From Archivesica marissinica (Eukaryota > Mollusca > Bivalvia > Venerida > Vesicomyidae): DNA of 64,000 nt. Below, one piece after another: positions 2,925-51,100 of this stretch. Both the position numbers and the translations under genes were made by a program. The notes under the pieces were generated by a model, which did no database searches, was not told where the DNA came from, and saw only the letters and a program-made list of their open reading frames with translations. Every line of letters begins with the position of its first letter. Position 1 is the stretch's first letter. The stretch spans positions 41,745,823 to 41,809,822 of the forward strand of contig CM026394.1 of NCBI GenBank assembly GCA_014843695.1, written 5' to 3'.

Positions 2925-3128
2925 TTAATCTTTCTTGCGTAGTTGCGCCATATTGAGTTTATAGTAGAAGCCTTGTTTCTGCATTAATTCATTGTGTGTG
3001 CCTTCTTCTGCGACGACCCCGTGTCGTATCACACAGATTTTATCTGCATTTTGTATTGTAGATAGTCTATGAGCAATAACAATACTGGTTCGCCCCTCTC
3101 TCGCTTTGTCTAGCGCCTCTTGTACGAT
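2925..3128 (-). CDS. ABCB1: ABCB1-like exon 21 (last in window), NBD2 H-loop and stop
   Basis: 204 bp. The acceptor in minus sense is AATTACAG|ATCGTA. It encodes [37 protein letters not shown], then [20 protein letters not shown] and [10 protein letters not shown] with TAA. The H-loop histidine in IVIAHRLST is present. The end matches the usual short C-terminal tail of ABCB1 proteins. Confidence 0.97.
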
Positions 3129-6100: not shown

Positions 6101-9100
6101 CCTGGGCAGACTCCAAAGGTTAACCAGTACTTAGGTGCACCAACCTCCGTAAGAAACTGCCAACTTTTTCATATAAATGTGACACGGTCGGAGCGGGGCT
6201 CGAACCTGTGACCATCAGTGATGATAGGTTACAGTGGTATACAAGTCAGCGACCTTAACCACTCGACCACAGACGCGGACTGAACATATACTTTTTCATA
6301 TAAATGACACCTCTGGTAGAGACAGCAGACATGTATTGTAACAGTACCTCTGGTAGAGACAGCAGACATGTATTGTAACAGTACCTCTGGTAGAGACAGT
6401 AGACATGTATTGTAACAGTACCTCTGATAGAGAAGAACCAGAGATGTATTGTAACAGTACCTCTGGTAGAGACAGCAGACATGTATTGTAACAGTACCTC
6501 TGATAGAGCAGAACCAGAGATGTATTGTAACAGTACCTCTGATAGAGCAGAACCAGAGATGTATTGTAACAGTACCTCTGATAGAGCAGAACCAGACATG
6601 TATTGTAACAGTACCTCTGGTAGAGACAGCAGACATGTATTGTAACAGTACCTCTGATAGAGCAGAACCAGAGATGTATTGTAACAGTACCTCTGATAGA
6701 GCAGAACCAGAGATGTATTGTAACAGTACCTCTGATAGAGCAGAACCAGAGATGTATTGTAACAGTACCTCTGGGTAGAGACAGCAGACATGTATTGTAA
6801 CAGTACCTCTGATAGAGCAGAACCAGAGATGTATTGTAACAGTACCTCTGATAGAGCAGAACCAGAGATGTATTGTAACAGTACCTCTGATAGAGACAGC
6901 AGACATGTATTGCAACAGTACCTCTGGTAGAGACAGCAGACATGTATTGCAACAGTACCTCTGATAGAGACAGCAGACATGTATTGCAACAGTACCTCTG
7001 GTAGAGACAGCAGACATGTATTGCAACAGTACCTCTGGTAGAGACAGCAGACATGTATTGCAACAGTACCTCTGGTAGAGCAGCAGACATGTATTGCAAC
7101 AGTACCTCTGGTAGAGACAGCAGACATGTATTGTAACAGTACCTCTGATAGAGCAGAACCAGAGATGTATTGTAACAGTACCTCTGATAGAGCAGAACCA
7201 GAGATGTATTGTAACAGTACCTCTGATAGAGCAGAACCAGAGATGTATTGTAACAGTACCTCTGATAGAGCAGAACCAGAGATGTATTGTAACAGTACCT
7301 CTGATAGAGCAGAACCAGAGATGTATTGTAACAGTACCTCTGATAGGGTAGAGACAGCAGACATGTATTGTAACTGTACCTCTGATAGAGCAGAACCAGA
7401 GATGTATTGTAACAGTACCTCTGATAGAGCAGAACCAGAGATGTATTGTAACAGTACCTCTGATAGAGCAGAACCAGAGATGTATTGTAACAGTACCTCT
7501 GATAGAGACAGCAGACATGTATTGTAACAGTACCTCTGATAGAGACAGCAGACATGTATTGCAACAGTACCTCTGGTAGAGACAGCAGACATGTATTGCA
7601 ACAGTACCTCTGGTAGAGACAGCAGACATGTATTGCAACAGTACCTCTGGTAGAGACAGCAGACATGTATGGCAACAGTACCTCTGGTAGAGACAGCATT
7701 GCAACAGTACCTCTGGTAGAGACAGCAGACATGTATTGCAACAGTACCTCTGGTAGAGCAGAACCAGATATGTATTGTAACAGTACCTCTGATAGAGCAG
7801 AACCAGAGATGTATTGTAACAGTACCTCTGATAGAGCAGAACCAGAGATGTATTGTAACAGTACCTCTGATAGGGTAGAGACAGCAGACATGTATTGTAA
7901 CTGTACCTCTGATAGAGCAGAACCAGAGATGTATTGTAACAGTACCTCTGATAGAGCAGAACCAGAGATGTATTGTAACAGTACCTCTGATAGAGCAGAA
8001 CCAGAGATGTATTGTAACAGTACCTCTGATAGAGACAGCAGACATGTATTGCAACAGTACCTCTGGTAGAGACAGCAGACATGTATTGCAACAGTACCTC
8101 TGGTAGAGACAGCAGACATGTATTGCAACAGTACCTCTGGTAGAGACAGCAGACATGTATTGCAACAGTACCTCTGGTAGAGACAGCAGACATGTATTGC
8201 AACAGTACCTCTGGTAGAGACAGCAGACATGTATTGCAACAGTACCTCTGGTAGAGACAGCAGACATGTATTGCAACAGTACCTCTGGTAGAGACAGCAG
8301 ACATGTATTGCAACAGTACCTCTGGTAGAGACAGCAGACATGTATTGCAACAGTACCTCTGATAGAGACAGCAGACATGTATTGCAACAGTACCTCTGGT
8401 AGAGACAGCAGACATGTATTGCAACAGTACCTCTGGTAGAGACAGCAGACATGTATTGTAACAGTACCTCTGGTAGAGACAGCAGACATGTATTGTAACA
8501 GTACCTCTGATAGAGCAGAACCAGAGATGTATTGTAACAGTACCTCTGATAGAGCAGAACCAGACATGTATTGTAACAGTACCTCTGATAGAGCAGAACC
8601 AGAGATGTATTGTAACAGTACCTCTGATAGAGCAGAACCAGAGATGTATTGTAACAGTACCTCTGATAGAGACAGCAGACATGTATTGCAACAGTACCTC
8701 TGGTAGAGACAGCAGACATGTATTGCAACAGTACCTCTGGTAGAGACAGCAGACATGTATTGCAACAGTACCTCTGGTAGATACAGCAGACATGTATTGT
8801 AACAGTACCTCTGATAGAGCAGAACCAGAGATGTATTGTAACAGTACCTCTGATAGAGCAGAACCAGACATGTATTGTAACAGTACCTCTGGTAGAGACA
8901 GCAGACATGTATTGTAACAGTACCTCTGGTAGAGACAGCAGACATGTATTGCAACAGTACCTCTGGTAGAGACAGCAGACATGTATTGCAACAGTACCTC
9001 TGGTAGAGACAGCAGACATGTATTGCAACAGTACCTCTGATAGAGACAGCAGACATGTATTGCAACAGTACCTCTGGTAGAGACAGCAGACATGTATTGC

Positions 9101-12100
9101 AACAGTACCTCTGGTAGAGACAGCAGACATGTATTGCAACAGTACCTCTGGTAGAGACAGCAGACATGTATTGTAACAGTACCTCTGATAGAGCAGAACC
9201 AGAGATGTATTGTAACAGTACCTCTGATAGAGCAGAACCAGAGATGTATTGTAACAGTACCTCTGGTAGAGACAGCAGACATGTATTGTAACAGTACCTC
9301 TGATAGAGCAGAACCAGAGATGTATTGTAACAGTACCTCTGATAGAGCAGAACCAGAGATGTATTGTAACAGTACCTCTGATAGAGACAGCAGACATGTA
9401 TTGCAACAGTACCTCTGGTAGAGACAGCAGACATGTATTGCAACAGTACCTCTGGTAGAGACAGCAGACATGTATTGCAACAGTACCTCTGGTAGAGACA
9501 GCAGACATGTATTGCAACAGTACCTCTGGTAGAGACAGCATTGCAACAGTACCTCTGGTAGAGACAGCAGACATGTATTGCAACAGTACCTCTGGTAGAG
9601 ACAGCAGACATGTATTGCAACAGTACCTCTGGTAGAGACAGCAGACATGTATTGTAACAGTACCTCTGATAGAGCAGAACCAGAGATGTATTGTAACAGT
9701 ACCTCTGATAGAGCAGAACCAGAGATGTATTGTAACAGTACCTCTGATAGAGCAGAACCAGAGATGTATTGTAACAGTACCTCTGATAGAGCAGAACCAG
9801 AGATGTATTGTAACAGTACCTCTGATAGAGCAGAACCAGAGATGTATTGTAACAGTACCTCTGATAGGGTAGAGACAGCAGACATGTATTGTAACTGTAC
9901 CTCTGATAGAGCAGAACCAGAGATGTATTGTAACAGTACCTCTGATAGAGCAGAACCAGAGATGTATTGTAACAGTACCTCTGATAGAGCAGAACCAGAG
10001 ATGTATTGTAACAGTACCTCTGATAGAGACAGCAGACATGTATTGTAACAGTACCTCTGATAGAGACAGCAGACATGTATTGCAACAGTACCTCTGGTAG
10101 AGACAGCAGACATGTATTGCAACAGTACCTCTGGTAGAGACAGCAGACATGTATGGCAACAGTACCTCTGGTAGAGACAGCATTGCAACAGTACCTCTGG
10201 TAGAGACAGCAGACATGTATTGCAACAGTACCTCTGGTAGAGACAGCAGACATGTATTGTAACAGTACCTCTGATAGAGCAGAACCAGAGATGTATTGTA
10301 ACAGTACCTCTGATAGAGCAGAACCAGAGATGTATTGTAACAGTACCTCTGATAGAGCAGAACCAGAGATGTATTGTAACAGTACCTCTGATAGGGTAGA
10401 GACAGCAGACATGTATTGTAACTGTACCTCTGATAGAGCAGAACCAGAGATGTATTGTAACAGTACCTCTGATAGAGCAGAACCAGAGATGTATTGTAAC
10501 AGTACCTCTGATAGAGCAGAACCAGAGATGTATTGTAACAGTACCTCTGATAGAGACAGCAGACATGTATTGCAACAGTACCTCTGGTAGAGACAGCAGA
10601 CATGTATTGCAACAGTACCTCTGGTAGAGACAGCAGACATGTATTGCAACAGTACCTCTGGTAGAGACAGCAGACATGTATGGCAACAGTACCTCTGGTA
10701 GAGACAGCAGACATGTATTGCAACAGTACCTCTGGTAGAGACAGCAGACATGTATTGCAACAGTACCTCTGGTAGAGACAGCAGACATGTATTGCAACAG
10801 TACCTCTGATAGAGACAGCAGACATGTATTGCAACAGTACCTCTGGTAGAGACAGCAGACATGTATTGCAACAGTACCTCTGGTAGAGACAGCAGACATG
10901 TATTGCAACAGTACCTCTGGTAGATACAGCAGACATGTATTGTAACAGTACCTCTGATAGAGCAGAACCAGAGATGTATTGTAACAGTACCTCTGATAGA
11001 GCAGAACCAGACATGTATTGTAACAGTACCTCTGGTAGAGACAGCAGACATGTATTGTAACAGTACCTCTGATAGAGCAGAACCAGAGATGTATTGTAAC
11101 AGTACCTCTGATAGAGCAGAACCAGAGATGTATTGTAACAGTACCTCTGATAGAGCAGAACCAGAGATGTATTGTAACAGTACCTCTGATAGAGACAGCA
11201 GACATGTATTGTAACAGTACCTCTGATAGAGACAGCAGACATGTATTGCAACAGTACCTCTGGTAGAGACAGCAGACATGTATTGCAACAGTACCTCTGG
11301 TAGAGACAGCAGACATGTATGGCAACAGTACCTCTGGTAGAGACAGCATTGCAACAGTACCTCTGGTAGAGACAGCAGACATGTATTGCAACAGTACCTC
11401 TGGTAGAGACAGCAGACATGTATTGTAACAGTACCTCTGATAGAGCAGAACCAGAGATGTATTGTAACAGTACCTCTGATAGAGCAGAACCAGAGATGTA
11501 TTGTAACAGTACCTCTGATAGAGCAGAACCAGAGATGTATTGTAACAGTACCTCTGATAGAGACAGCAGACATGTATTGTAACAGTACCTCTGATAGAGA
11601 CAGCAGACATGTATTGCAACAGTACCTCTGGTAGAGACAGCAGACATGTATTGCAACAGTACCTCTGGTAGAGCAGAACCAGAGATGTATTGTAACAGTA
11701 CCTCTGATAGAGACAGCAGACATGTATTGCAACAGTACCTCTGGTAGAGACAGCAGACATGTATTGCAACAGTACCTCTGGTAGAGACAGCAGACATGTA
11801 TTGCAACAGTACCTCTGGTAGAGACAGCAGACATGTATGGCAACAGTACCTCTGGTAGAGACAGCAGACATGTATTGCAACAGTACCTCTGGTAGAGACA
11901 GCAGACATGTATTGCAACAGTACCTCTGGTAGAGACAGCAGACATGTATTGCAACAGTACCTCTGATAGAGACAGCAGACATGTATTGCAACAGTACCTC
12001 TGGTAGAGACAGCAGACATGTATTGCAACAGTACCTCTGGTAGAGACAGCAGACATGTATTGCAACAGTACCTCTGGTAGAGACAGCAGACATGTATTGC

Positions 12101-15100
12101 AACAGTACCTCTGGTAGAGCAGCAGACATGTATTGTAACAGTACCTCTGATAGAGCAGAACCAGACATGTATTGTAACAGTACCTCTGGTAGAGCAGCAG
12201 ACATGTATTGTAACAGTACCTCTGATAGAGCAGAACCAGAGATGTATTGTAACAGTACCTCTGATAGAGCAGAACCAGAGATGTATTGTAACAGTACCTC
12301 TGATAGAGCAGAACCAGAGATGTATTGTAACAGTACCTCTGCTAGAGCAGAACCAGAGATGTATTGTAACAGTACCTCTGATAGAGACAGCAGACATGTA
12401 TTGTAACAGTACCTCTGATAGAGACAGCAGACATGTATTGCAACAGTACCTCTGGTAGAGACAGCAGACATGTATTGCAACAGTACCTCTGGTAGAGACA
12501 GCAGACATGTATGGCAACAGTACCTCTGGTAGAGACAGCAGACATGTATTGCAACAGTACCTCTGGTAGAGACAGCAGACATGTATTGCAACAGTACCTC
12601 TGATAGAGACAGCAGACATGTATTGCAACATTACCTCTGGTAGAGAAGAAATGAACTGGTGTATGTTAGCATTTCTAGCAGCAGTGATGATCTCGTCCAT
12701 AGGCACGTCCCTCGAGTTGTCTCCGTAGGCAATGTTTTCTCCGATACTTCCATCAAACAGGACAGGTTCCTGTGATACAATACCAATCTGGGACCTCAAC
12801 CATTTCACGTTCAATTCCTTTAGATTGTTTCCATCCAAGTACTGAAATGTCAAACTATCCTATATAAAATGCTATTGTCTGGTACCGTATTATTTGTAAT
12901 AAATCCTGCTTCACACTTTCTAAACAGTCGGGATGTTATTTACTAGACATACGATACTTGATGGTCAAGATGTATTTGCAAGACCAGAATTTGGAAAATT
13001 GACGTGCAAAGCGCAGCAAATTACTCTGTACAATTATTTATTTATGGGAAATTTTTTTCCAACAAGACATGGTGGCTTTTATAGAAAGTGGGACTACTTT
13101 TGGCAGTTTGGGTATAAAATAGTTTTATCTAGCAGGTGCTTGTTTCAGTCAATAAAACAAACACATCTGTACCCTTCTTCAGAGAAAAATGGAAGAGGGA
13201 TATTTATTGACTTAAACAAGCACCTGTGTTTACTCTGGTAAAGTAGTTACGACCAACAGTGTAGAATCTCTCTGTAAGCTGCACGGTCCCACAATCTTAC
13301 CACAGCACCGTCGGTCGTATCATAGAATCTCTCTGTAAGCTGCACGGTCCCACAATCTTACCACAGCACCGTCGGTCGTATCATAGAATCTCTCTATAAG
13401 CTGTACGGTCCCACAATGTACAACAATCTTACCACAGCACCGTCGGTCGTATCATAGAATCTCTCCGTGAGCTGTACGGTCGTACTCTTGCCGCAACCAG
13501 AGCTTCCTACAAGGGCGACAGTCTGGCCTTGCGGTACAATGAGATTCAGACCCGTGAGAATGGCGGTATCTGGTCTGGATGGGTACATGAATTTTACATC
13601 GGAGAAGACGAAGGTGCTACGATACTTGCCCTGTAAATATATGTGTGATAGGTGAATGTGCTTCCTCACCACGTAATTCTGAACAACAGCTTAGAATCAC
13701 AGTCAATATGGTGTGTGTTTTACGCTTATTTATCATCGAACCTGCTAGTGTAGTATGGCTCACGCCAGAGGCGAATCAAGCGAAATGGTGACTTCATTTG
13801 CCTTATTTCTAGAGGAAAGAATACTTGCTAATTCGTATATATTTGACAGTCTTGAAATACAAAAGGCGAGGCCAAAGCTAATCTCCCTCGGACAAACGAC
13901 GATAAAAATTTCATAATAGGGGTGACTATAATACGATATTAAATATTCATCTGGACAAAAAACGGCCGAAAGGACACCCATACCAAATGTAGAAACAAAT
14001 TAAACAATATAATGCAGCACTTAACAGATATTTGGAGACATCTCAATAAATCGTCGCTACAATATACATGGCACTCTAACACAAAGCCTCCGATATTTAG
14101 CAGGTTAGATTTCTTTTTAGTGTCTGAACATTTTTGCAACATTACAAAGGCATGCAATATTAAACCAGGATACAAGACTGATCATTCCATAGTTTTAATT
14201 AATATAAGTTTTATTAACCAAGAAAGGGGACCTGGCTACTTCAAAGTAAACAATAGTCTATTGCTTATCAATGAGTACCAAAGTATAATAAAGAATAGTA
14301 TAAAGGAAACAGTTCAATTCAATCATGCTGCTAGTCCAAATGTTTTATGGGAATTGATTTAAGGAATGCAACTCTTGACATAAAAGAGGAAGCCAGACTA
14401 ACTAATGAAATAGAAGAACTTGAAAATAAACTAATAACATCAAATGTAGATCAAAATAAAGAAGATCTAATACATAAACAACAAGAACTCAATAATTTAT
14501 ACGATCAACGCGTCAATGGTATGATGATAAGATCATAAGGCCTTACATATTGAAGGAAATGAAAAGAACACAAAATATTTTGCAAACCTTGGAGAAACGA
14601 CATGCGGAAAAAGAAAACTATTACAAAATTAAAAATTATATGTAAATGAACACGAAATAGTAGGTTCCAAAAACATCTTAAATGAAGAAGTGACTTTCTA
14701 TAAGAGTCTCTACAAAAAACGTGATATAGCAGCATCAAAGATAAATTTCTTCAATCAAGTCAGTAAATAAATTTTCACATAATTATAGCGTAAATTGTGA
14801 AGGTCTATTAAATGAATACGAGTGCTCGAATTCATTACTTGAAATGAAAAATAATAAAAGTCCTGGTTCGGATGGATTAACAACTGAATTCTACAATGAT
14901 TTAAAACAATATTACGTCAATTCGCTAAACTGTTCTTTCTGTACTGGTGAGTTAACAGACCTCCAAAAACAAGGCAAGGCATCCAATCAGTCTTCTTAAT
15001 ATTGCTACCAAAACAGTAGCCAACAGACTGAAAAGTGCTTTACCACAAATTATTAGTCCTGAACAAACTGGTTTTATGAAAGGTCGTTATATCGGTGAAA

Positions 15101-18100
15101 ATGTCCGTTTAATATTTGAAAATCTTGAAGATAAAAACCTTCCCGGCATCCTATTCTTCTCAGACTACGAAAAAGCATTCGACAGTCTCGGTCATGATTT
15201 CATATTTAAATGTCTGCAACATTTTAACTTTGGAGAGAATCTTATTAAATGGGTAAAGCTATTCTACAATAATGTAAACAGTGTAATAATAAATAACGGC
15301 CATATGTCTGAATCGTTTCAGATTGAAAGAGGTGTAAGACAAGGTTGTCATCTTCTCTTTTTATTATATGTATGGAAGTACTTTCCAGCGTAATTGCAAA
15401 AGATATAGATCAATAATGGTGAACAAAAGTCATTTGAACGTTTAATAGAGGTCATAACCGAATTTGGAACGATTTCAGGTCTTAGTCTTAACACTTTCAA
15501 GTCAACAGTTCTCAGAATATGTTCATTAAAAGATGCCAACAGTTCTCAGAATAGGTTCATTAAAAGATGCCAACATAAGATATCGCGATGATATAAAATT
15601 TACCTGGACAAATCAAAATGCAAAAACTCTGGGAATGGTTTTCAGCACAAATAAAGAACTGAACATTAAGTTAAATCTAGAACCAAAACTACAAGAATTT
15701 AAAAACTGTTTGAAGCAATGGCAACACCGCAAATTAACACTTCTAGGCAAAGTACTGTAATCAAGACCTTTGCGTTATCAAAATTAGTATATCCATTTAC
15801 CGTTTTATCTAACCCTTCGGAAAATATCATGAAAGACATCAATAAATCCATATATAGTTTTCTATGGGATGGTAAACCGGACAAAATTAAACGAAATGTG
15901 TTGAAGCAACAGTATGAAAAAGGAGGTTTAAAGGTAACTGACATTCAAGCATTTCTTTACTCAATTAAAGCATGTTGGGTGAAAAGATTTTTAAATAAAG
16001 ATAATAAAGGGTTATGGAAATGTTTCTTTGAATCACCTCTTCAAAAATTTGGAGAAGATTTATCTTTGAATGCAACATGTCATTAGCAGATATTAATAAC
16101 ATATGTTTTAAAAAACAATTTTCTGAAAGACGTTTTGTATGCATGGTTTAAAGTAAACCAATGATACTGTAAGAAAACATATCAAGACATTATTTATAAA
16201 AAATTGGTTTGATAAAGGAATGAATTATATAGAGCAATTATACGACTTTCGAAACAATAATTTTTTTTCATTTAATGAAGCTAAAATAATATTTGATATA
16301 AATGAAGACCTATTTCTAAATTACTTCAAACTGACTAAAAGTATCCCAAGGAAATATTTAACCATCTTAAACCCAGAAATCTTAACACATGCCAGAAAAG
16401 AAACATTGTTAGACAAATTGGTAAAATCTAGAAATCCTAATCAACTTCTATATCATATACAAATACAAGCAGCAAGTGAAGAATCTATAACCTCAGAACA
16501 GAAGTGGAATACTATGTTTCCAAAACACATCCTGTATTGGAAACATATTTATTCACTAACATTTGAAGCTACAATAGATACTACATTAAGAAGTTTTCAA
16601 TATCGCTTTCTAATGCAGCTTATCCCAACAAATACATACTTATTTAGATGTAAATTGACTCTAACTAATATATGTGATTTTTGTAACATGCATGTCGAAA
16701 GTATCGAACATATGTTTTGGGAATGTGCATACATCCAACAATTATGGAATAACCTATCTCAATTTTTAAAATCCAAGAATATTACTGTTGTGTTCAACCT
16801 AGCAGACATATGTTTTGGTAGAACACAAAATTCTAAATCATATAGATGTATAAATTACATTATTATTTTGTGCAAATTTTTAGAATGAAAACTATTCCCC
16901 ATTTCGAGCATTTTAAAAGATACTTAGATATAAGAATTAATCTAGAAAAGGCCATAGCACTGGAAAGAAACAAATTAGAACAACACAATCGGAAATGGTC
17001 TCTTTTTTCTTAAATCATGCACTGAACCCCGAGTTTAAAAATATAGTACATTAATATTGTCAAATGGAAACGATTACTTATACCCAACTACGTTTATGCT
17101 TTTTGCTGTTTTTTTCTCCTTGCATTTGTCCATCTATCAAAATGTTAAGGAATGTTGGTACTCTTTCTGTCAAGGTACATTATTCTCAATCAAAAACATT
17201 TGTAAAATACACTAATAATACATGTAATGCTTAACAATATGTGATATCAATGTATGTATAATATATATGTATGTTATCTATGTATCAAAATAAAGAAGGT
17301 TACCCGATAGGGGCCTCAACAAATAAAAAATCTGGATAATAAACTTAATCAATACGTATAGCCAATCAGCATCGTCGATATAAGACAGCTTTACATATTT
17401 CGCAGTCTAATTAACATAAATATCCAGATGCTATTATGCAAATTGCTACCGTCCATTCTCGCCTATAAGACGACCCCCTACTTTGTTCCTGAAATCTGTG
17501 GGTTTTGGCATGCACTCGCCTATAAGACGATCCCCTACTTTGTTCCTGAAATCTGTGGGTTTTGGCATACACTCGCCTATAAGACTATCGCCTACTTTGT
17601 TCCTGAAATCTGTGGGTTTTGGCATGCACTCGCCTATAAGACTATCGCCTACTTTGTTCCTGAAATCTGGGTTTTGGCATGCACTCGCATATAAGGCAAA
17701 TCCCCTACTTTGTTCCTGAAATCTGTGGGTTTTGGCATGCACTCGCATATAAGACAAATCCCTACTTTGTTCCTGAAATCTGTGGTTTTGGCATGCACTC
17801 GCATATAAGACAAATCCCCTACTTTGTTCCTGAAATCTGTGGGTTTTGGCATGCACTCGCATATAAGACAAATCCCCTACTTTGTTCCTGAAATCTGTGG
17901 GTTTTGGCATGCACTCGCATATAAGACAAATCCCCTACTTTGTTCCTGAAATCTGTGGGTTTTGGCATGCACTCGCATATAAGACAAATCCCCTACTTTG
18001 TTCCTGAAATCTGTGGGTTTTGGCATGCACTCGCATATAAGACAAATCCCCTACTTTGTTCCTGAAATCTGTGGGTTTTGGCATGCACTCACATATAAGA

Positions 18101-21100
18101 CAAATCCCCTACTTTGTTCCTGAAATCTGTGGGTTTTGGCATGCACTCACATATAAGACAAATCCCCTACTTTGTTCCTGAAATATGTGGGTTTTGGCAT
18201 GCACTCGCCTATAAGACAATCCCCTACTTTGTTCCTGAAATCTGTGGGTTTTGGCATGCACTCGCCTATAAGACGATCCCCTACTTTGTTCCTGAAATCT
18301 GTGGGTTTTGGCATGCACTCGCCTATAAGACGATCCCCTACTTTGTTCCTGAAATATGTGGGTTTTGGCATGCACTCGCATATAAGACGGGCTGATAAAA
18401 TGGACAAAGTATAAATTGCATGTTTGGCCAGTGCAATTTGAAAGCATCAGTGCGATATCTTTACTAAAACTCAATTATGATTTATCACTTATAAACTGGA
18501 AAGCCACTTCGAGGCCATAATCTGGCGGTAAAAAACTTGTCTTATAGGTGAGTATGGACGTAAGTACACTTTGGAGATCTCCCCTCACAACAACATTTTG
18601 GAATGACTATTTAGCGGTTATCGAGTGATAACTAATTTTACAGGAACAAAAATATGTCAGTGTCACATACAGTACAAACATAATATATCTTGGACATTAA
18701 TTAGTCTAAGGTTCGTCTTGTAGTCGTCGAGGAAATGAGTTGGCCGTCAAGGAAATTTTCAGCGTCAGAGTTGGTCGTCGAGGATATTTTCAGTGTCAAG
18801 AGTTAGCCGTCGATGAAATTTTCAGCGTCAGAGTTGGCCGTCGATGAAATTTTCAGTGTCGAGAGTTAGCTGTCGAGGAAATTTTCAGTGTTAAGAGTGC
18901 TTTGTTTTCGGTGCACCAATCACATGTCATGTTATCCGGTATTTCACACGATCGGCATGTGCTCTTGCAAAGTCTACCATGAGGGTTCATCCATTACAAA
19001 AACAAACAGTTTCGGGCTATATTGCCGGCGGGCAGTTTACCTAACAACACCTTTCCTGGGCAGGCTCCAGCAACCAGTACTTGGGTGCACCAACCTCCGC
19101 AAGAAACTACCAACTTTTTCATATAAATGAGACACGGCCTGAGCGGGGCTCGAACCCGTGACCATCAGTGATGATAGGTTACAGTGGTATACAAGTCGGC
19201 GACATTAACCACTCGACCACGGAGGCGGACCGTTAATGAGATTAATGAAAACATTTACATACTTTCAAAATAAAATGTAAATATTTTATCTATTTTTGTG
19301 CATTTTCCTGTAGGACACTCCAGCTTGTACCATATAAACCAAGCACCTGCTACTGACATCATTGGCAATCAAAACCGTGTGAATAAAGAATATAACTCGA
19401 AAACAGATGGGGAACAAAACGGGGCGATTGGACGGTAAAATGCGTACCTCTTGGAGTTGAGTACCCTCTTCAGAATACGAATCAATCGCAGGTTTACGAT
19501 CAAGGAGTCGGAAGATTTCTTTTGCCGAGGCATCTGCTTTCGCAGCACTTGGAGCGAACGAACTGGCTTCCCCGATGGACATGCCTCCAAATACAATAGC
19601 CGCGAAGACCCTGCAAACATGGAAACTATTGACCTGCTATTCGTACATTTACATCACTATTCTATCCAACGTCAGAAACAAACTAAAATGTATGGCCACA
19701 TTTGCAACTTGCCGCGTCATCATGGGAACTACGTAAGATACACCTTTAATATCAAAGAAACATGTGCATGCTGCCCGTAAGATTGTGTGTGCTGGTTAAC
19801 TGCATATCATTAGTGAGGAAATTCATACGAAAATAAGATATGAATACAATAGCAATGTAAATATTCCTACATTCTATTTCGAGGCAAGTGCCCCATTCGC
19901 CTCTGTGTGGTTACGGGCCTGACTTCATTGTGAAGCAAGAGCATTTTTCGCAGTCTGTAGAACTGCCCAACATGGAATTTTAATTCAATTTTGGATAGGT
20001 TTCAGGAAAATTCTGGAAATGCTTCGAGAAGACTGCAAGAGCAAATAGGCAGTTATGAAATGAACAAAACACTTACTTGAATACGTCAACAAAGTCCAGT
20101 TCTGACTGTCGAATCAGGTAGGCCCCTAGCCAGTAAGATGCGGCATACGCGAAGAAAATAACGCCCTGGGACATGGAGAAGGAGATTCCGATCACGTGGG
20201 CCTTCCTCAGTGCGTCCCGGTATGGGGTCTCCAGCTCGCCACAGAACTGTCTGTAAAACATATCTTCTCGAGTGAGCGAAGCGACCGTTCGAATGTTTTC
20301 TATAGATTCAATAGCAATCTAAAACAAAAAGCAGATTGTAATTATTATTTGTATTTCATAAATATTACAAGATGTTGGTATAGATAATGGGGGTATGAAT
20401 ATTCATGAGCAGAGCCTGTGACCGCACAGGCTCTTGTTTATGCGTCTCATCGGTGCTTCCACCGTCACATCTAATTTTATCCTTAGTTACAATGGAGGCA
20501 TGTAATAATGATTAAAAATTACATGCCTCCATTGTAACTAACTATCGTATATACTTGCTCATAAGTCGAGGTGGTACTTTGACAGCTAGAAAACATGTAT
20601 TTTATATACACTCATAAGTTGAGGTGGTACTTCGAGAGCTAGAAAACATGTATTTTATATACACTCACTCATAAGTCGAGGTGGTACTTCGAGAGCTAGA
20701 AAACATGTATTTTATATACACTCATAAATCAAGGTGGTACTTTGACAGCTAGAAAACATGTATTTTATATACAGTCAAACCTCCAGAGCAAACACCACCC
20801 GGATACACCCAGATTGGTTGTTGTAGAGGTTGTTGTTCTAATGAATGGTGTTTTATGGCGCATCGACATCTAAGGTCATGTAGCACGCATTAAAGTTATG
20901 TTTATTGTCGAGAGTATGAAATAAAATTCTATATAAGTATATGCATTACGTAAAAATTAATACTAAGAAGTTATAAAGACGTAAGATTAATTACAGGTAA
21001 TATATGAATGAATGATTACTACAAAGGCATGATTAACAATTGATATCACAGCTTATTATAAATTCCTATTGCCTTGATAAATGATATGGTTGTTCTAGGG

Positions 21101-39100: not shown

Positions 39101-42100
39101 AACAATAGGAGGGTCCCATGCAGCAATACAATATATCCATACAATAGGAGGGTCCCATGCAGCAATACAATATATCCATACAATAGGAGGGTCCCATGCA
39201 GCAATACATATATCCATACAATAGAGGGTCCCATGCAGCAATAAATATAAATATATCCATACAGTAGGAGGGTCCCATGCAGCAATACAATATATCCATA
39301 CAATAGGAGGGTCCCATGCAGCAATAACATATATCCATACAATAGGAGGGTCCCATGCAGCAATACAATATATCCATACAATAGGAGGGTCCCATGCAGC
39401 AATAACATATATTCATACAATAGGAGGGTCCCATGCAGCAATACAATATATCCAGACAAAGTGGGTCCATGCAGCAATATAATATATCCAGACAATAGGA
39501 GGGTCCCATGCAGCAATAAAACATATTACGAGATGTTAAAATGTTATTTATCAGCACAGTTTGTACCAATTTATCTGAGCTCGATTGTGAAACAAGGTCC
39601 TACAACTCGTTCCTAAACCTCGTTCCTTATGGAATCCATCGCCACGAGGGAGAGAAGAGGCAATGTGGAACTTAAAGTGCCTTGCCCAAGGACACAATCG
39701 TAACGGCTACAGCTGGGAACGAACTCCGGGTCTTCCAAACCTGAAGTGAACGCGCTACCGCGACTTCCATTCTTTTGCATTGAAATATTATGCCCATATC
39801 AGTCATGAATAGGTACAGTACTCAACAATAAGTTGCAAGAACTTGTTTCGCAATCAAGTTAAAATGAATTTGTATAAAATAAACAAATCGGAAATAAATG
39901 TAAAAATCTTAAGTAACCGCATTAACAGTGTTCAAGCGATAGAGAAGAATATCACATTCTCCGATATTTTATTGAAAATGTTGGTGTAATATTTCATATT
40001 GTGATAACCTGTCGTGCATCAGAGGTCACTAGACAATTGTTTCAATTCAACATAACCTGTCGCGCATCGTCAGGTCACTAGACACGATTGTTTCAATTCA
40101 ACATAACCTGTCGTGCATCGTCCGGTCACTAGACACAATTGTTTCAATTCAACCTAACCTGTCGTGCATCGTCCGGTCACTAGACACAATTGTTTCAATT
40201 CAACATAACCTGTCGTGCATCGTCCGGTCACTAGACACAATTGTTTCAATTCAACCTAACCTGTCGTGCATCGTCAGGTCACTAGACACAATTGTTTCAA
40301 TTCAACCTAACCTGTCGCGCATCGCAAGGTCACTAGACAATTGTTTCAATTCAACCTAACCTGTCGTGCATCGTCAGGTCACTAGACACAATTGTTTCAA
40401 TTCAACCTAACCTGTCGTGCATCGTCAGGTCACTAGACACAATTGTTTCAATTCAACCTAACCTGTCGCGCATCGCGAGGTCACTAGACAATTGTTTTAC
40501 TTCAACCTAACCGGTCGTGCATCGTGAGGTCACTAGACACAATTGTTTCAATTCAACCTAACCGGTCGCACATCGTCAGGTCACTAGACAATTGTTTCAA
40601 TTCAACCAATGTTATTTTTAAAAGGTTGAAAATGGCATATGTGTACTTTATAAAGTATGTGTTTATGTAGTTCAATGCGTGGTGCTAATTATCAGGTTCA
40701 TTTCATTTCCAATTGTTTGTTCGGGTTTTACGCCTTCATCAACCCCATTTTGGGCTATATCGCCGAAGGGCAGCTTACCTAGCAACACCTTTCCTGGTCT
40801 AACCAATACTAAGCCGCAACCTCAGTAAGAAACTGCAAACTTTTTCAGATAAATAGACACTGACCCATGACCATCAGTGATGATAGGTTACAGTGGTATA
40901 CAAGTCAGAGACTGTAACCACGGATTTGGATAATTTCTGATTAAGCAAAGGAAAATCAGGGGAGGTAACTAGAAAATTGTGTTTTAAATGAAGTTCCTTA
41001 CCATCATCCGTAGTAGCACTCTGAAAACAGAACAAAAGCAGGTCATTTTAAAGAGTCTATATTATATTCCAATGCGTTATATAGCCGGTTATAAGCACTT
41101 TAATCCGCTAGCACACATGGTTCGCCGGAGGCGAGGGTAAATAAGCTCAATCATCATCATCGCACTATAACCCTTTCAACACTACAGGCCTCTAAATAGA
41201 CTTACAAAAAGTGTAGATCCAGATGAGCCATCTCATCAGGATCTGCACTTTTTGCCGGTAATAATTATTACTTATTTTTAGATCAAATTACCCATTTTGA
41301 TAAATGAACTGGTCCAAAGGTAATTTTCTTATTAATTTATTGGTCTATAACTATCATGTACCAGTCCATGTCAGTTACTTGGTGTTGAATGAGTTAATAT
41401 CATGTACCAGTCCATGTCAGTTACTTGGGGTTGAATGAGTTAATACCATGTACCAGTCCATGTCAGTTACTTGGGGTTGAATGGGTTAATATCATGTACC
41501 AGTCCATGTACGTACCATTTCCCCCAATATGTACTGCCCTTCCTCTTACTGCCTCTTTGAAAAAGTCACCATAAGTTAGCACATTTTTCTCAGGGCTCCA
41601 GCAGTTAACCAGTACTTGGTGTACCAACCTCCGTAAGAAACTACTACAGGTGAGATAGCTGATGCTACAGGTGAGATAGCTGATGCTCGAGCAGTTAACC
41701 AGTACTTGGTGTACCAACCTCCGTAAGACAACGAGGCTAATATTCTATAAGTGTTAGGTATAAACGTACACAAGATCATTTTCCGCTTCGATTCATGTTG
41801 TATACCACTTCCTGCTATCATTTTCTGCTTCGATTCATGTTGTGTACCACTTCCTGCTATCATTTTCTGCTTCGATTCATGTTGTGTACCACTTCCTGCT
41901 ATCATTTTCTGCTTCGATTCATGTTGTATACCACTTCCTGCTATCATTTTCTGCTTCGATTCATGTTGTGTACCACTTCCTGCTATCATTTTCTGCTTCG
42001 ATTCATGTTGTATACCACTTCCTGCTATCATTTTCTGCTTCGATTCATGTTGTATACCACTTCCTGCTATCATTACAAAATCTCATGTATTTACTCGTAA

Positions 42101-45100
42101 ATGTTTGAACATTCAAAAAATCTTAAGAAATGTTTCCAAGTTTATTCGGTTACTCCAAAAATTAACTCCCTTGATTACTATACGAACAAGCATATTTACC
42201 TGACTGTTCACAAGCTTTTGATAGATTCCATTTTTGGACATGAGCTCGGAATGAGTTCCCTTCTCAACAACAACGCCATCTCTGAGCCCAACAATCACAT
42301 CAGCAGTCTTGATGGTAGAGAGTCTATGGGCGATGACAATGGTCGTTCTACCATGACTAGCCTGTAATGTATTAAATAGTTCATTCGTTAATATGCGTTC
42401 ACGATTTGTGAAAGCAAATAACCGCAACTACAGTCAAACATGTGTTAGTGGTCACCCTCTATTAAGCAGCCAACCTGTATTAAGCAACCAGTTTCCGGAT
42501 TCCAAATATGTTGTTTTATTATTCATTTGACCTCTATTATCGTAATCGTGTAAGACGCACTTCCCCTCCCCCAAATTAGTATCCAAAAGTCTGGTGCGTC
42601 TTATACTCCAGTTTAGAACTAAATTCCATTGTTTCAAAGACTCAAAAATGACAAATGGCGTATTACAACAAAGGGAAATAAATGTTTCATACTATTTTTC
42701 TAAGTCCCGTAACATGCCGTATTTCGTTCGAGTCTATATATCTACATCATGTGGGAAATCATTCAAAGTTAAAAATGTTATTGTATTTATGATAAAAAAA
42801 AGAAAATCTATATAGAAAATAGATTATAAAAAATATTAAAATCAACAAAGCAACTTTTATTGAAGGAAAATTAATGATTGTTCACATACTCACTGACACA
42901 TGTCAAACACGCTATTATACTGATTGTATAAATGAAGTCATGAGCAGATGATCATTTTAAACGTAAAACACACACATGATCATACCCAGCGAATAAGAAG
43001 TTAGCTGCCTACGTCGAAGCACGGTACACAGAGCCGTGAGAGAGAATATGGCATATTAACGATTTAGTGGTCATACACCAGTCATTATCAAAACAAATCA
43101 CATTCAGTTTATTAGTTTTCGCGACATTTGGTCCTTTTCTTCAATGATGCGTTTTATACAGCAAATAAGTTTTTCCCCCTGGAATTTCTGTTTTTTTAAC
43201 TGCGTCTTATACTCCAGTGCAACCTATACATACACGATTATGGTAAGCAGCCACCTGTGCTAAGCAGCCACTTTCCGAGTTTCCCTCGACTGGCTGCTTA
43301 ACACAGGTTTGACTACATTTTGTCTACACATGTCTATATAGGCAGTACAAGCAGGACTCATTCCGTTATTAAAACCACATAATAGTTCATTAGTTAATAT
43401 GTGTTCACGAATAGTGGAAGCCAATAACCCCAACTACAGTAAAACCTCTATTAAGCAGCAAACTTGCATGAAGCAGCCAGTTTTCATATTCCCATTATTT
43501 GATATACATTTGACCTCTATTAAACAGCCACATTCTGTGATTCCCATGGCTGGCTGCCTAAGAGAGGTTTGACTGTATATCGCTTCGATACACATACTCT
43601 CTGGACGTTATTTAAGAAAGCGCACATGTACATGCAATATGTGTACAGCAGATATTAAATTACAAGTAAACCGATGGATGTTCCGCAAACACGGTGCTCG
43701 ATGGAGAAATATTTAGAAATGATAAGTGTATGAAGCGTTTTTGGTGGATGTATTTTTAAGGAGATAAGCGAGAAACATTTTAACAACATTTTTTAAAATT
43801 TAAGTTTATTTACGTCGCTACCAGTTGTCCATTTGACCATTTCAGTTTACCTAACAACACCTTTCCTGGACAGGCTCCAGCGGTTAATCAGTACTTGGGT
43901 GCACCAACCTCCATAAGAAACTGCCAACTTTTTCATATAAATGAGACACGGTCTGAGTGGGGCTAGAACCCGTGACAAGTGATAATAGGTTACAGTGGTA
44001 GACAATTCAGCGACCGTAACCAATTGAGTAGTGATAAACCGATTGTGAAAATGTGTAATCGATTATAATCGACGAGTCTTTATTTTTGTCTCTTACTTTT
44101 ATGTTTGTCTCTTACTTTTATGTTTGTTTATACCTCAAATAAAACCACGATTTACTATTGGCTGTATTTTATTAGCATTGCACATTTGCAACAACAATTC
44201 TAAATGCATCTAGTACTAGACTTTTCACTAGTATGTCACTAAGCGTTCTGTCCTCTATTAACTTAAAAACTAATTTTATATCAGGTGGCAGTCCAGTAAC
44301 TAAGTCTAGTAGGCCTACTCAGATGTAACAGAGTAACTAATTTGTCGAAACTAGTAACTTGTAAGTAATTTATTAGTACTTATGTTATATTATATTTCGG
44401 GTTTTACGCCTGCATCAGCACCATTTCGGGCTATATCGCCGGCGGGCAGTTTACTTAACAACACCTTTCCTGGGCAGGCTCCAGCGGTTAACCAGTATTT
44501 GGGTGCACCAACCTCCGTAAGAAACTGCCAACTTTTTCATATAAATGAGACACAGCCTGAGCGGGGCTCGAACCCGTGACCATCAGTGATGATACTATGA
44601 TAGGTTACAGTGGTATACAAGTCAGCGACCTTAACCACTCGACCACGGAGGCGAGATTGTTAAACTCACAAATTAGATGGAATGATTTCGATTTATAACT
44701 ATCTCAATTGCCCGATTAATAATCAATTATCTAATTGGTTTACCCATCCAATTATTCCGATTAATCGATTATGGATTTTGAAACCGATGCATATTGAGTG
44801 CCATATGATGATTTTATATAGAAATATGCTTACACGGAATTATGTTGGATTGTATTCCCTAAAACTCGGGAAACACCATTATCCAGTAAGGTATGTTCAA
44901 GTCACATTGATCTACGAACAGTGATATTTCGTTCACAGCACTCTCCTCATTGCCCAGTTACTCAAGTTTCATCTACCTCGGGAAACACCATTATCCAGTA
45001 AGGTATGTTCAAGTCACATTGATCTACGAACAGTGATATTTCGTTCACAGCACTCTCCTCATTGCCCAGTTACTCAAGTTTCCATGTTCTGTTCCAAACA

Positions 45101-48100
45101 AGCGTTTATTGGAGTGAAAAGGGGACATATGTGGCCATGAGAACTGGGATTACTGCCTGTTCTAGGGTTACGTGGCTATGAGAACTGGGATTACTGCCTG
45201 TTCTAGGGTTACGCGGCTATGAGAACTGGGAATACTGCCTGTTCTAGGGTTACGTGGCTATGAGAACTGGGATTACTGCCTGTTCTAGGGTTACGTGGCT
45301 ATGAGAACTGGGATTACTGCCTGTTCTAGGGTTACGTGGCTATGAGAACTGGGATTACTGCCTGTTCTAGGGTTACGTGGCTATGAGAACTGGGATTACT
45401 GCCTGTTCTAGGGTTATGGGCTATGAGAACTGGGATTACTGCCTGTTATAGGGTTACGTGGCTATGAGAACTGGGATTACTGCCTGTTCTAGGGTTACGC
45501 GGCTATGAGAACTGGGATTACTGCCTGTTCTAGGGTTACGTGGCTATGAGAACTGGGATTACTGCCTGTTCTAGGGTTACGCGGCTATGAGAACTGGGAT
45601 TACTGCCTGTTCTAGGGTACGCGGCTATGAGAACTGGGATTACTGCCTGTTCTAGGGTTATGTGGCTATGAGAACTGGGATTACTGCCTGTTCTAGGGTA
45701 CGCGGCTATGAGAACTGGGATTACTGCCTGTTCTAGGGTTACGCGGCTATGAGAACTGGGATTACTGCCTGTTCTAGGGTTACGTGGCTATGAGAACTGG
45801 GATTACTGCCTGTTCTAGAATTACGTGGCTATGAGAACTGGGATTACTGCCTGTTCTAGGATTACGTGGCTATGAGAACTGGGATTACTGCCTGTTCTAG
45901 GGTTACGTGGCTATGAGAACTGGGATTACTGCCTGTTCTAGAATTACGTGACTATGAGAACTGGGATTACTGCCTGTTCTAGGGTTACGCGGCCATGAAA
46001 ACTGGGATTACTGCCTGTTCTAGGGTTACGCGGCTATGAGAACTGGGATTACTGCCTGTTCTAGGGTTAGTGGCTATGAGAACTGGGATTACTGCCTGTT
46101 CTAGGGTTATGTGGCTATGAGAACTGGGATTACTGCCCGTTCTAGGGTTACGCGGCTATGAAAACTTTTCTGCAGCTATGAATTCCATTTTATGTGGCTA
46201 TAGAGGTCAAAAGAATAGCCAATTAATATACAATTAAAAAAACAACATACAATTTTGGGTATGTGCAGACGGACAGACAAAGTGTAAACGAAATGCTCTT
46301 TTTTGGTCGAGAGAGCATAAAAACCGTTCCCTTTAAATCTCAAGAAAGACCAAATAAAACAACGTGATAATACTTTTTCCAAGGCCTCTTGCACCACGCC
46401 TTCACTTTCCATGTCCAGCGCCGAGGTAGCCTCGTCCAATAAGAGAATTTTCGGATCACGCACGAGGGCACGTGCAATGGCAATTCTCTGTTTCTGACCT
46501 CCACTCAATTGGGCACCATTATCTCCAACCAGTGTATCATATTTCTGCAAAACATACATATAATTACAATTTGCAATGTGGCGTTGCTGATTCAGACCAT
46601 TCGTCGCCGTTCATAACCCAATGAACCACAACATGATTATATATATTCTCTAAGTATCCAAGACGACAAATCAAAAGAACCACTTGTTTTCTGTTTGTTT
46701 GTTTGTTTGGGTTTTACGCCGGCATCAGCAGGGTTTTCTCCCATACGATTGACCACATATAGGCTTTCATCTTCACCAACGAGAGTGATTAATATAAGTT
46801 GCTAAAACTTGCTTCGCAATCGTTGTAAAATAAATAAAGTTTAAACTAAGCGAGTGCTAATAAAATATATATAATTGTGTCACATGGTATCACTAAATTA
46901 TGGCCAAGTTAATATTTGGTTGCACGTCAGTTTGTTATATCTGCTTCCACATACCTCAGGAAGAGCCATGATGAAATCGTGAGCATTGGCCATCTTCGTA
47001 GCCATTTCTATCTCCTCTTGTGAGATGGACTCGTGTCCATAACGGATATTTTCGCCAATTGTTGTACCAAACAGCACCGGTTCCTGGCTTACTATGCCAA
47101 TATGCTCTCTCCACCATTTTATATTGATGTCCTTCAGATCAACACCATCAATCTGAATCTATAAAACAACACCATCAATCTGAATCTATAACACCATCAA
47201 TCTGAATGTATAAAACAACACCATCAATCTAAATCTATATAACAACACCATCAATCTGAATCTAAAACAACACCATCAATCTAAATCTATAAAACAACAC
47301 CATCAATCTGAATGTATAAAACAACATCATCAATCTGAATCTATAAAACACCATCAATCTGAATGTATAAAACAACACCATCAATCTGAATGTATAAAAC
47401 GAACACCATCAATCTGAATGTATAACAACACCATCAATCTGAATCTATAACAACAACATCAATCTGAATGTATAAAACAACACCATCAATCTGAATGTAT
47501 AAAACAACACCATCAATCTGAATGTATAACAACACCATCAATCTGAATGTATAAAACAACACCATCAATCTGAATCTATAAAACAACACCATCAATCTGA
47601 ATGTATAAACCAACACCATCAATCTGAATCTATAACAACACCATCAATCTGAATGTATAAAACAACACCATCAATCTGAATCTATAAAACAACACCATCA
47701 ATCTGAATGTATAAACCAACACCATCAATCTGAATCTATAACAACACCATCAATCTGAATGTATAAAACAACACCATCAATCTGAATCTATAAAACAACA
47801 CCATCAATCTGAATGTATAAAACAACACCATCAATCTGAATGTATAAAACAACACCATCAATCTGAATGTATAACAACACCATCAATCTGAATGTATAAA
47901 ACAACACCATCAATCTGAATGTATAAAACAACACCATCAATCTGAATGTATAAAACACCATCAATCTGAATGTATAAAACAACACCATCAACTGAATGTA
48001 TAACAACACCATCAATCTGAATATATAACAACACCATCAATCTGAATCTATAAAACAACACCATCAATCTGAATGTATAAAACAACACCATCAATCTGAA

Positions 48101-51100
48101 TGTATAAAACACCATCAATCTGAATCTATAAAACAACACCATCAATCTGAATCTATAACAACACCATCAACCTGAATCTATAACACCACCATCAATCTGA
48201 ATGTATAAAACAACACCATCAATCTGAATGTATAAAACACCATCAATCTGAATCTATAAAACAACACCATCAATCTGAATGTATAACAACACCTTCAACC
48301 TGAATCTATAACAACACCATCAATCTGAATGTATAAAACAACACCATCAATCTGAATGTATAAAACAACACCATCAATCTGAATGTATAAAACAACACCA
48401 TCAATCTAAAACAACATCAATCTGAATCCCCAATTGAAACAAACAAAAAATCGAAACAAAATAACCCCAAATATTTTCGCCAATTCACAAAATTAATCAC
48501 AACTATTTGTTTTTTTGTCGCAATTGGCGTCCGACAACGGGAGCACTGCTTTGGTAACCATTGATTCGCTTCAGCTATCGGGTTACGAGATTTAAAGACA
48601 AAATTTGTCAGACTTAAGGAGATACAGGCCCATCTTTGATTTCAAGCGGCTTCAGGCTGTCCTATTTTTCGAGAACTAACTATGTATCCCCTGACAATCA
48701 TGGAGTATACTCAACAAAACTAGAAACGTCCCTGTTTTATAGCCGGTGCCGCACTGTCTGTACGTGCTACATGTTCAATGTACATGCATTTTAAGCCCTG
48801 GCGATGTTCAGAATACGATCGTGTAGAGCTTACCCGATACACACGTTTTACATATCGGCCAGTGACCGGAACGTTGATTTGCACGTGCATGATATACATC
48901 GATATGTTGATTCAGTTCATGTCGTACCATTCATGCGATAGTGGCTATTCGGAAAAGTAAAACACTTTTTGAATTTTTTCACTGTTTTCGATATGCCACG
49001 GCTTTCCGAAAACAAGCGAAATCAGGCAATTGGGATGCTTGCGGGTGGGATGTCCGCCAGGGTGGTCGCGCGTCGGTTCGGGTGCTGTCGGAAGACGATT
49101 GATCGTCTTGCAGCCCGGTACTAGCAGACTGAGGCTGTTCACGACCGATGGCGACCTGGTAGGTCTCGTGTAACGACGGCTAGAGCCAATCGTTACATTA
49201 CGTTGACGCACTTACGTCAACGTCGTTTGGCAGTCACTGCTAGGCGATACGGTGTCTCAGGGCAGACCATTCGCAACCGGTTGCATCATAACGCCCAACC
49301 AATTGGGGCACGCCGCCCGTACACTGGTCAGATAATAATTACCAAATGTCACCGTGCTGCCAGGCTGTTATGGGCGTGACGTCATCTGAACTGGAGAAGA
49401 ATGGCCGACTGGAACCGAGTTTTGTTCGCCAATGAATCTCGTTTCACAGTTAGTCATGCTGACGGAAGATTACGGGTATACAGGCGTAAAAATGAAAGAC
49501 AGAGTTGGTTGTTGTACAGGGCAACATCAATGCCCAACGTTAAGTTGCAGAGGTGCTAAATGCACATGCCTTACCATTTATTTGTCAACATGGTCCTGGT
49601 GTGACATTGATTCAGGACAATGCCCGCCCTCGCGTAGCCAGGGTCAGAACTCGATACTTGCAGCAAATCAACGTCATCGTCATGCCATGGATAGCGGTTT
49701 CCCCGGATCTCAACCACATTGAGCACAGATGGATGAGCTGGGCCTCATAGCACGAGCTAACCATCAGATTGACAATGTTCGCGATCTTACACGGGCGTTA
49801 CAACGGGAATGGAGGAATTTGCCCAATGCACTGGTATTGTGCAATGTTACGTCGATGCGTCGTAGGATCAGTCATGCAAATGGTGGCCACACTCGGTACT
49901 AACGAGATTTACTGGATGTGTCAAATTTCTTATTGAAATTCCATCTCTAAACATAAGTAACACCTTTCTAAGTATTTGTGATTTTGACCCTACAGCCCTT
50001 GGCCGGTTATCTCTCGAAAAGTTAACAAAATAGCCAGATGCAATGAATTGGCTTTGATACAGAAATGAATGAACTTGTTTTTCCAAATTGATTCATAAAA
50101 GTAAACCTTTTGGTTTTCGATAAATCTTTCCTTAAATATGGAGGCGACGTTTCTAGTTTTGCTCAGTATATATATAACAAAGACATAAATATGAAATTAA
50201 CTCGGAAGTACCTGACCAGATTCTGGATCATAAAACCTCTGTATGAGCTGTACAACAGTGGATTTGCCACACCCACTTGCCCCGACCAATGCCACCGTTT
50301 GACCTCTGCTGATCTCGAGGTTAACACCATGCAATACCTGAATATGTAAGTTACAATGTATAATAGTATTGGTTATTACTGTCTATACTCGCCTATAAGA
50401 CGAGTTTTTACAACCAGATTATGTCCACAAAGTGGCCATTGGAAGGATCAGCCTCAAGTCGAGGACAAACCCAATGGATGGGCGAGCATCACGATCGTTC
50501 GGTTGCACCCATGTTCGATAAACATGTCTTGACAGAAACAATAAATAGTGTGCCCAGTTTAGCTCTAGTAACACAAACAATAACAATCCGTTCCCGTGTG
50601 AATTGGCAGCATGTTCTGTAATTAACATTTTCAAAATACCAGACTGGAGTTTGCTAACTACAGTGAAAGGAAAAGAAAGTATACACCCTGTATAAAAGTT
50701 GATAGTTCAAAGTACAATGAATTTATTGCATAGAAATGTTGTACATGTATATTTCATCATATTGTTGAATCACAAAACAGAAATGTAAATCATTCCATTG
50801 CAAAATAATGTGAAAAAATCACGTCATTGCCCATCACATGTGTAAACAGAATTACAGAAATGCCAATACTTGGTGTGACCCACTTGAGCTGAAATACACG
50901 TTAAACATCTTTTTCTCATCGACTGTATTACTGACAGTAATTTCGCTTGTGGCATAGCATTCCAGGCATGAAGCAATACTGCTCTCAATTCTACAACGTT
51001 TGACGGGACAGGGTTTCTTTCATGCACAGACCGTCCCAACTCGCTCTAAATGTTCTCGATAGGGTTCAGGTCTGGTGAGTGACCAGTCCATCACATTAAT

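Follow-up and report, generated by a model that had tools for sequence, protein, structure and literature searches.

Minisatellites straddling splice junctions, mostly 5' splice sites, in an ABCB1-like gene and other genes of the clam Archivesica marissinica

Results

Four splice junctions of an ABCB1-like gene lie inside minisatellites

We analyzed a stretch of 64,000 nucleotides from the vesicomyid clam Archivesica marissinica (hereafter the window; NCBI GenBank assembly GCA_014843695.1, contig CM026394.1, positions 41,745,823 to 41,809,822 of the forward strand), which is part of contig C9 of the 1.54-Gb assembly and carries an ABCB1-like (P-glycoprotein) gene. Four splice junctions of this gene are covered by tandem arrays whose unit combines the end of an exon, the splice site and intron bases. 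Arrays of this anatomy straddle 12 of 72 donors (5' splice sites) and 3 of 75 acceptors (3' splice sites) sampled in the assembly (Fisher P 0.014). They are probably ordinary minisatellites that arose by local tandem duplication across junctions, usually donors, and that are tolerated as the exon-proximal copy stays a working site.

Exons were mapped by homology to the Mercenaria protein P0001, and splice sites were placed by homology together with AG/GT. The exon translations had their best matches in ATP-dependent translocase ABCB1-like of Mercenaria mercenaria (77% identity) and Ruditapes philippinarum (76%). Within the window, AG precedes all 20 coding exons and GT follows all but the last, giving 20 acceptors and 19 donors, or 39 junctions. 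Tandem repeats with a period of at least 10 bp formed 37 blocks, together 40.6% of the window, and four of these blocks cover a junction, namely the donors of E18, E17 and E11 and the acceptor of E6 (exon names E1–E20 are those of this analysis). The gene, the four exons and their arrays are as follows.

2928..63369, minus strand: ABCB1-like (P-glycoprotein) gene, 20 coding exons inside the window, based on tblastn with Mercenaria protein P0001, AG/GT borders and translation
12635..12841, minus strand: exon E18, 207 bp, donor CCAGAG/gtaatg at 12635
6309..12646, minus strand: array over the E18 donor, 37/39-bp unit, 12 exon bases inside
13433..13630, minus strand: exon E17, 198 bp, donor GCTGTG/gtaaga at 13433
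13262..13481, minus strand: array over the E17 donor, 61-71-bp unit, 3.4 copies, 49 exon bases
31689..31793, minus strand: exon E11, 105 bp, donor CTTCAG/gtaatt at 31689
31143..31722, minus strand: array over the E11 donor, 72-74-bp unit, ~8 copies, 34 exon bases
46955..47158, minus strand: exon E6, 204 bp, acceptor ttttatag/ATTCAG at 47158
47140..48407, minus strand: array over the E6 acceptor, 24-27-bp unit, ~48 copies

An earlier note on this DNA had described four separate arrays at junctions of one gene, with units spanning the junction, and both exon mapping and Tandem Repeats Finder (TRF) bear this out. The sites that it assigned to exons 19, 18, 12 and 6 are right; their numbers become E18, E17, E11 and E6 here, the start of the gene lying beyond the window. 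All four arrays are minisatellites by TRF, with tandem units of ~10–100 bp in several to many near-identical copies, and their consensus units look unrelated by eye. The ~27-bp unit of the E6 array consists of eight intron and 19 exon bases, and the E11 array is continuous with a 22-bp array that begins at 30917.

The E18 unit is specific to one locus

The E18 array fills 94% of intron 18. It holds 168 AGAGGTA sites, spaced mostly 37 or 39 bp apart, of which 163 read GAGGTACTG, four read GAGGTACAG and one, the exon's own copy only, reads GAGGTAATG. On a matrix built from the 72 sampled donors, the native donor GAGGTAATG scores 9.2 vs 6.8 for GAGGTACTG; 163 of the 168 sites carry one weaker base relative to the native donor. 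The array is heterogeneous, with 19 unit types. A 27-base pattern of the unit had 69 matches in the 1.54-Gb assembly, every one (69/69) within the E18 array, so that this unit, the one on which the statement rests, belongs to a single locus and not to a dispersed element. One stray stretch lies close by.

5951..5994, minus strand: further stretch of the E18 array, resembling its unit, ~69 bp from the E19 acceptor and separated from the rest by ~314 bp of other sequence

A single open frame of 2187 codons (6296–12859, minus strand) takes in exon E18 together with its entire 6.3-kb array, and two more minus-strand open frames (2133 and 2028 codons) extend over most of the array.

Straddling arrays recur at donors of independent genes

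The sample comprised 147 junctions from one assembly. It drew on the window; the exons upstream of it (UP, L039), which belong to the 5' part of the ABCB1-like gene and number four in the next 10 kb; two paralogues, C9p (C9 57.09–57.16 Mb, L040–L046) and C13p (C13 32.86–32.92 Mb, L047–L052); and exons matching PF00118, the chaperonin family (mainly CCT, the label used below). For the latter, 35 of 57 exon matches were used in E-value order; among the remainder, three intronless matches and six second copies were dropped and 13 were unused. Dropped before counting were both junctions of the C9p exon at 64169–64321, the C9p.4 acceptor (border not fixed), the L083 acceptor (short flank) and the donors of the last exons L075, L076 and L084. 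Walk matches at the W.E13, C13p.2 and L060 donors were not counted as arrays. None of the 30 loci on a further list of matches was used as such, and those falling neither in the window nor in the paralogue regions were set aside.

An array was counted as straddling if its unit includes exon bases. The 12 donors are W.E11, W.E17, W.E18, UP.u3, C9p.1, C9p.7, C9p.12 and the CCT donors L058, L073, L077, L078 and L085, located on five contigs (C1, C8, C9, C14 and C18); the three acceptors are W.E6, C9p.12 and UP.u4, the last having the least certain start among the straddled exons. Outside the window, the counts were 9/53 donors vs 2/55 acceptors (Fisher P 0.027). CCT alone gave 5/32 vs 0/34 (Fisher P 0.023), indicating that the trait is not peculiar to the ABCB1-like gene. 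The donor arrays have units of 17–76 bp and contain two to 78 exon bases (at least 12 in 10 of the 12). Requiring at least five exon bases removes L077 (two) and L085 (four), leaving 10/72 donors vs 3/75 acceptors (P 0.043) and, outside the window, 7/53 vs 2/55 (P 0.09).

Contacts between arrays and junctions are to be expected in this genome, given a high array content: 41% of the window, 69.5% of C9p and 81.4% of C13p (22.5% of UP). The earlier note had treated junctions as a very small target without weighing the array share of the window. Beside one C13 exon we observed an array of ~226 units of 39 bp.

Donors probably carry more straddling arrays than random placement predicts

We compared these counts with chance using two measures, which partly disagree and are both given; all P values are nominal, being uncorrected for the numerous zones and variants of the null that we explored. 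The first measure is a geometric null, in which seeds per unique base are multiplied by unit length to give the number of random units that straddle a junction and are fully tolerated. This null is fair for straddling arrays, because an array that starts in an exon survives only if its unit passes the junction. Across all donors, 12 arrays were observed vs 2.7–3.9 expected (P <0.0001 to 0.0008). Donors outside the window gave nine vs 2.2–3.3 (P 0.0004–0.007), donors without the window and C9p gave six of 39 vs 1.5–2.3 (P 0.004–0.03), and CCT donors alone were borderline (five vs 1.2–2.1, P 0.007–0.06). With at least five exon bases, the P values were 0.0003–0.0015 for 10/72 donors, 0.0035–0.018 for 7/53 outside the window, 0.03–0.12 for 4/39 without the window and C9p, and 0.07–0.23 for 3/32 CCT donors. 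Acceptors were at expectation (three vs 2.8–4.1). The window gene, with four junctions vs 0.8–1.6 expected (P 0.008–0.075, before allowing for the choice of the window), goes beyond chance only weakly when taken alone. A roughly threefold donor excess over the geometric null is thus likely, in a small sample, and the proposal that junction hits are nonrandom is supported for donors and not for acceptors.

The second measure counts starts per base by walking from exon to intron and logging the first repeat start. The background was 182 repeat starts over 120 kb of unique sequence in UP, C9p, C13p and the window, or 1.51 per kilobase. Within the last 108 exon bases, acceptors had 0.38 starts per kilobase (ratio 0.25, P 0.0055), and donors had 1.70 (12 arrays, ratio 1.12, P 0.64). 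Closer to the donor the ratio was 1.82 for the last 60 exon bases (P 0.08) and 2.36 for the last 30 (P 0.047).

The strongest rival explanation is chance combined with tolerance, in which seeding is uniform, donors are unprotected and the excess is sampling noise or reflects an under-counted background. The near-background rate of repeat starts over the 108 exon bases preceding donors favors it. So do the loss of significance for CCT alone, either with at least five exon bases or with a walk-based background (P 0.06–0.23), the weak result for the 4/39 donors without the window and C9p, and unit lengths that fit length-biased straddling (mean 46 vs 41.5 expected). However, the per-base comparison ignores the loss of arrays that lie wholly inside exons, and in the variants run the straddling geometry gives a 2.7- to 4.5-fold excess with P values of at most 0.0015 for all donors and 0.018 outside the window. 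We consider this explanation unlikely, though it is a real contender.

Decoy donors and reading frames

The remaining copies of the donor in each array are potential decoys. Both decoy donors found in the E17 array match the native score. The GT is kept in seven of the nine decoys found in the E11 array, in 15 of 17 in L085 and in all 106 in the first 4 kb of the E18 array. In 10 of the 11 arrays evaluated (C9p.1 left out), translation continued beyond the native donor runs into an in-frame stop within 63 bp, E18 being the exception. Selection that keeps arrays translatable was rejected on these grounds for all except E18, where the open frame was left as chance.

Arrays are probably younger than the introns

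Exon lengths are equal or nearly so between the window gene and its paralogues (204/204 bp for E6, 207/207 for E18, 198/198 for E17 and 105/102 for E11). At the four homologous junctions found (the C9p.15 acceptor and the C13p.1, C9p.10 and C13p.2 donors), there was no straddling TRF array; a weak repeat is present at the C13p.2 donor, the homologue of E18. Since exon lengths are kept while the homologous junctions lack such arrays, the introns probably predate the arrays. By this comparison, which covers paralogues only, the introns do not appear to be new ones gained by tandem duplication. UP.u3 and C9p.1 are the same exon; an array is found at both, and their intron parts differ.

With exons on opposite strands and one exon damaged, C9p may be partly a pseudogene. 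In L046 (C9p 64169–64620), part of the exon start is duplicated, and next to it lies a 68-bp array that includes the acceptor and exon bases; the array may have caused the damage.

Discussion

A model for the origin and survival of junction-straddling arrays

The explanation that we favor begins with the local tandem duplication of a 17–76-bp segment that happens to straddle a junction, in a genome in which arrays would arise everywhere and these minisatellites would turn over quickly. After its birth, the array would expand into the intron. It would survive where the exon-proximal copy serves as the working 5' splice site and the remaining copies are decoys; because decoy use would usually add a premature stop, rare splicing errors would probably be destroyed by RNA surveillance. 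Acceptor-straddling arrays are rarer, probably because surplus AGs upstream of the exon are more often used in error. The roughly threefold donor excess could then reflect either biased birth or longer survival at donors. Candidate causes of biased birth are polymerase pausing or R-loops at donors and a nucleosome edge at the exon border; survival may be longer if an exon-anchored first unit cannot be deleted. The earlier note's suggestion that arrays are tolerated because the outermost site still works explains their survival; it does not explain the donor excess, since the geometric null already grants full tolerance. A replication or repair process that favors junctions, also proposed there, may act at donors.

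Several results weigh against tandem duplication with tolerated decoys. At least one decoy scores as high as the native donor or higher in 10 of the 12 arrays (27/28 in C9p.12, 5/5 in L073 and 5/5 in L078), and it is from sequence that we infer which copy is spliced. At E18, the frame beyond the native donor stays open for 6336 bp, so that decoy use there would not meet a stop. Nor would tolerance by itself predict an excess at donors. Given these decoy scores, the strength of the sequence does not account for which donor is chosen, and position, presumably through exon definition, would have to decide, a reading supported by the human ABCA7 array described below. Experiments on duplicated splice sites by Reed and Maniatis in 1986 reportedly bear on whether exon or intron proximity wins.

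Alternatively, intronic arrays may have spread toward exons until selection stopped them at the exon edge, one of the causes proposed in the earlier note. At acceptors, repeat starts are indeed raised on the intron side (−2 to +40; 10 events, 3.43 per kilobase, ratio 2.27, P 0.027, one of several zones). The donor intron side shows no such pile-up (−2 to +40; three events, 1.29 per kilobase, ratio 0.85), and at the 12 donors the repeats begin five to 81 bases into the exon. As the unit itself contains exon bases, the seed must have straddled the junction. Inward growth is a poor fit at donors and improbable overall.

More improbable still is a selected function, in which selection would maintain the extra donors, either as back-up sites or for the control of splicing or expression. 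It is in line with the retention of GT in all E18 decoys found in the first 4 kb, with the near-uniform weaker base among the E18 sites, and with a human precedent in ABCA7, described below, in which array length alters splicing and expression (according to the available part of PMC5954066). Against it, homologous junctions of paralogues mostly lack arrays, GT is lost from decoys of several arrays (among them E11 and L085), and GT retention at E18 is what homogenization predicts.

We give very little credence to arrays carried or seeded by a donor-like motif or a dispersed repeat: some other window arrays (such as that at 32911–34241) resemble dispersed sequence by eye, but the best donor score in 106 intronic arrays was 2.52 on the sense strand vs 2.05 on the antisense strand (P 0.32, no strand bias), which led us to reject a donor-like motif as the seed, and the E18 unit occurs at no other locus. 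Just as improbable is an assembly artefact of collapsed or inflated repeats at exon edges, which could be suspected from runs of N in three stretches and is countered by the heterogeneity of the E18 array, the intact adjoining exons and the spread of straddled donors over five contigs.

Relation to known systems

The earlier note knew of no described class of such arrays; this does not stand, as a human minisatellite has the same anatomy. The variable number tandem repeat (VNTR) in intron 18 of human ABCA7 has a 25-bp unit that includes the exon 18 donor, in up to ~427 units. Its first two bases are the canonical donor, a minor isoform keeps a single unit, skipping of the following exon is more frequent with longer arrays, and both its length polymorphism and its splicing effects are proven (all from the available part of PMC5954066). 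As in the clam, the array starts at a donor, its unit carries the donor GT and it occupies one intron of an ABC transporter gene; that both cases involve an ABC gene is probably a coincidence. The ABCA7 array, as that part of the source presents it, is one locus in one species and begins at the GT, whereas the clam arrays contain two to 78 exon bases and are many, unrelated and spread over many genes, and are known here from the sequence of one assembly. An array directly at the exon with a donor-containing unit, as at ABCA7, was found at 12 of the 72 donors, including E11, E17 and E18 of the window. The class itself was thus already known, and any novelty may lie in its prevalence.

Internal tandem repeats at human exon–intron boundaries have also been surveyed, in segmental duplications, with 27 intron modifications retained after manual inspection (PMC2812944, available part). 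They likewise cross exon–intron boundaries and alter splicing; they differ in concerning recent human paralogues, variable repeats and new introns, and the available part makes no donor/acceptor comparison. Intron gain by tandem duplication is similar in that a boundary-crossing duplication copies the splice signals, but there the intron is new, whereas the clam introns are common to paralogues and probably pre-existing. Our searches of an open-access library showed no genome-wide report of donor-anchored minisatellites, and the available parts of PMC12783039, PMC3549977 and PMC12480690 contain nothing on junction-straddling arrays.

Implications

Extended to the lineage, these results raise the possibility, which we advance tentatively and with less confidence than the model itself, that 5' splice sites are favored birthplaces or refuges of minisatellites, with about one donor in six straddled, at roughly three times the random rate, in thousands of genes. 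How the spliceosome chooses among near-identical neighboring donors is a classic question that has been studied mainly with constructs. If the extension is true, thousands of genes would amount to natural experiments on how splicing proceeds when many near-identical donors compete: the exons seen here, among them those of housekeeping genes, which depend on correct splicing, are trailed by donor copies that number from a few to 167. Use of only the exon-proximal copy would be strong in vivo support for exon definition; otherwise, a large hidden isoform diversity would exist. The donor excess, if real, would link landmarks of transcription and splicing to the birth of repeats. Gene prediction in array-rich genomes may also be affected by long open frames such as that of E18. 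Elsewhere, open frames of 340–420 codons surround some exon matches of 50–100 codons.

Other features of the window and the ABCB genes

Two further arrays of the window approach junctions without exon bases, in contrast to the four described above.

36022..38271, no strand assigned: array with a 30-bp unit in 75 copies; its end lies at a distance of 41 bp from the E9 acceptor, and it contains no exon bases
3376..5649, no strand assigned: array with a 29/38-bp unit, lying 87 bp away from the donor; it takes up 87% of the intron that follows E19 and contains no exon bases

The units of 37-bp arrays at 32911–34241, 57213 and 62035 resemble dispersed sequence by eye, and some arrays therefore seem to have been seeded in interspersed repeats.

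The reading frame of the ABCB1-like gene is intact except for a phase step from E8 to E9, which calls for a microexon, 1 mod 3 in length and, judging from Mercenaria, of ~22 nt. A search of the array-rich intron at 42199–35982 for this microexon, in which the single filter was a minimum of three acidic residues, gave four candidates, none convincing. On the plus strand at 14335–17013, open frames resemble reverse transcriptase by eye, pointing to an element of the long interspersed nuclear element (LINE) type within the gene. Finally, numerous similar matches of equal length to the exon of the ABCB signature region lie at ~6.9–10.5 Mb of C7, suggestive of a large recent expansion of ABCB genes.

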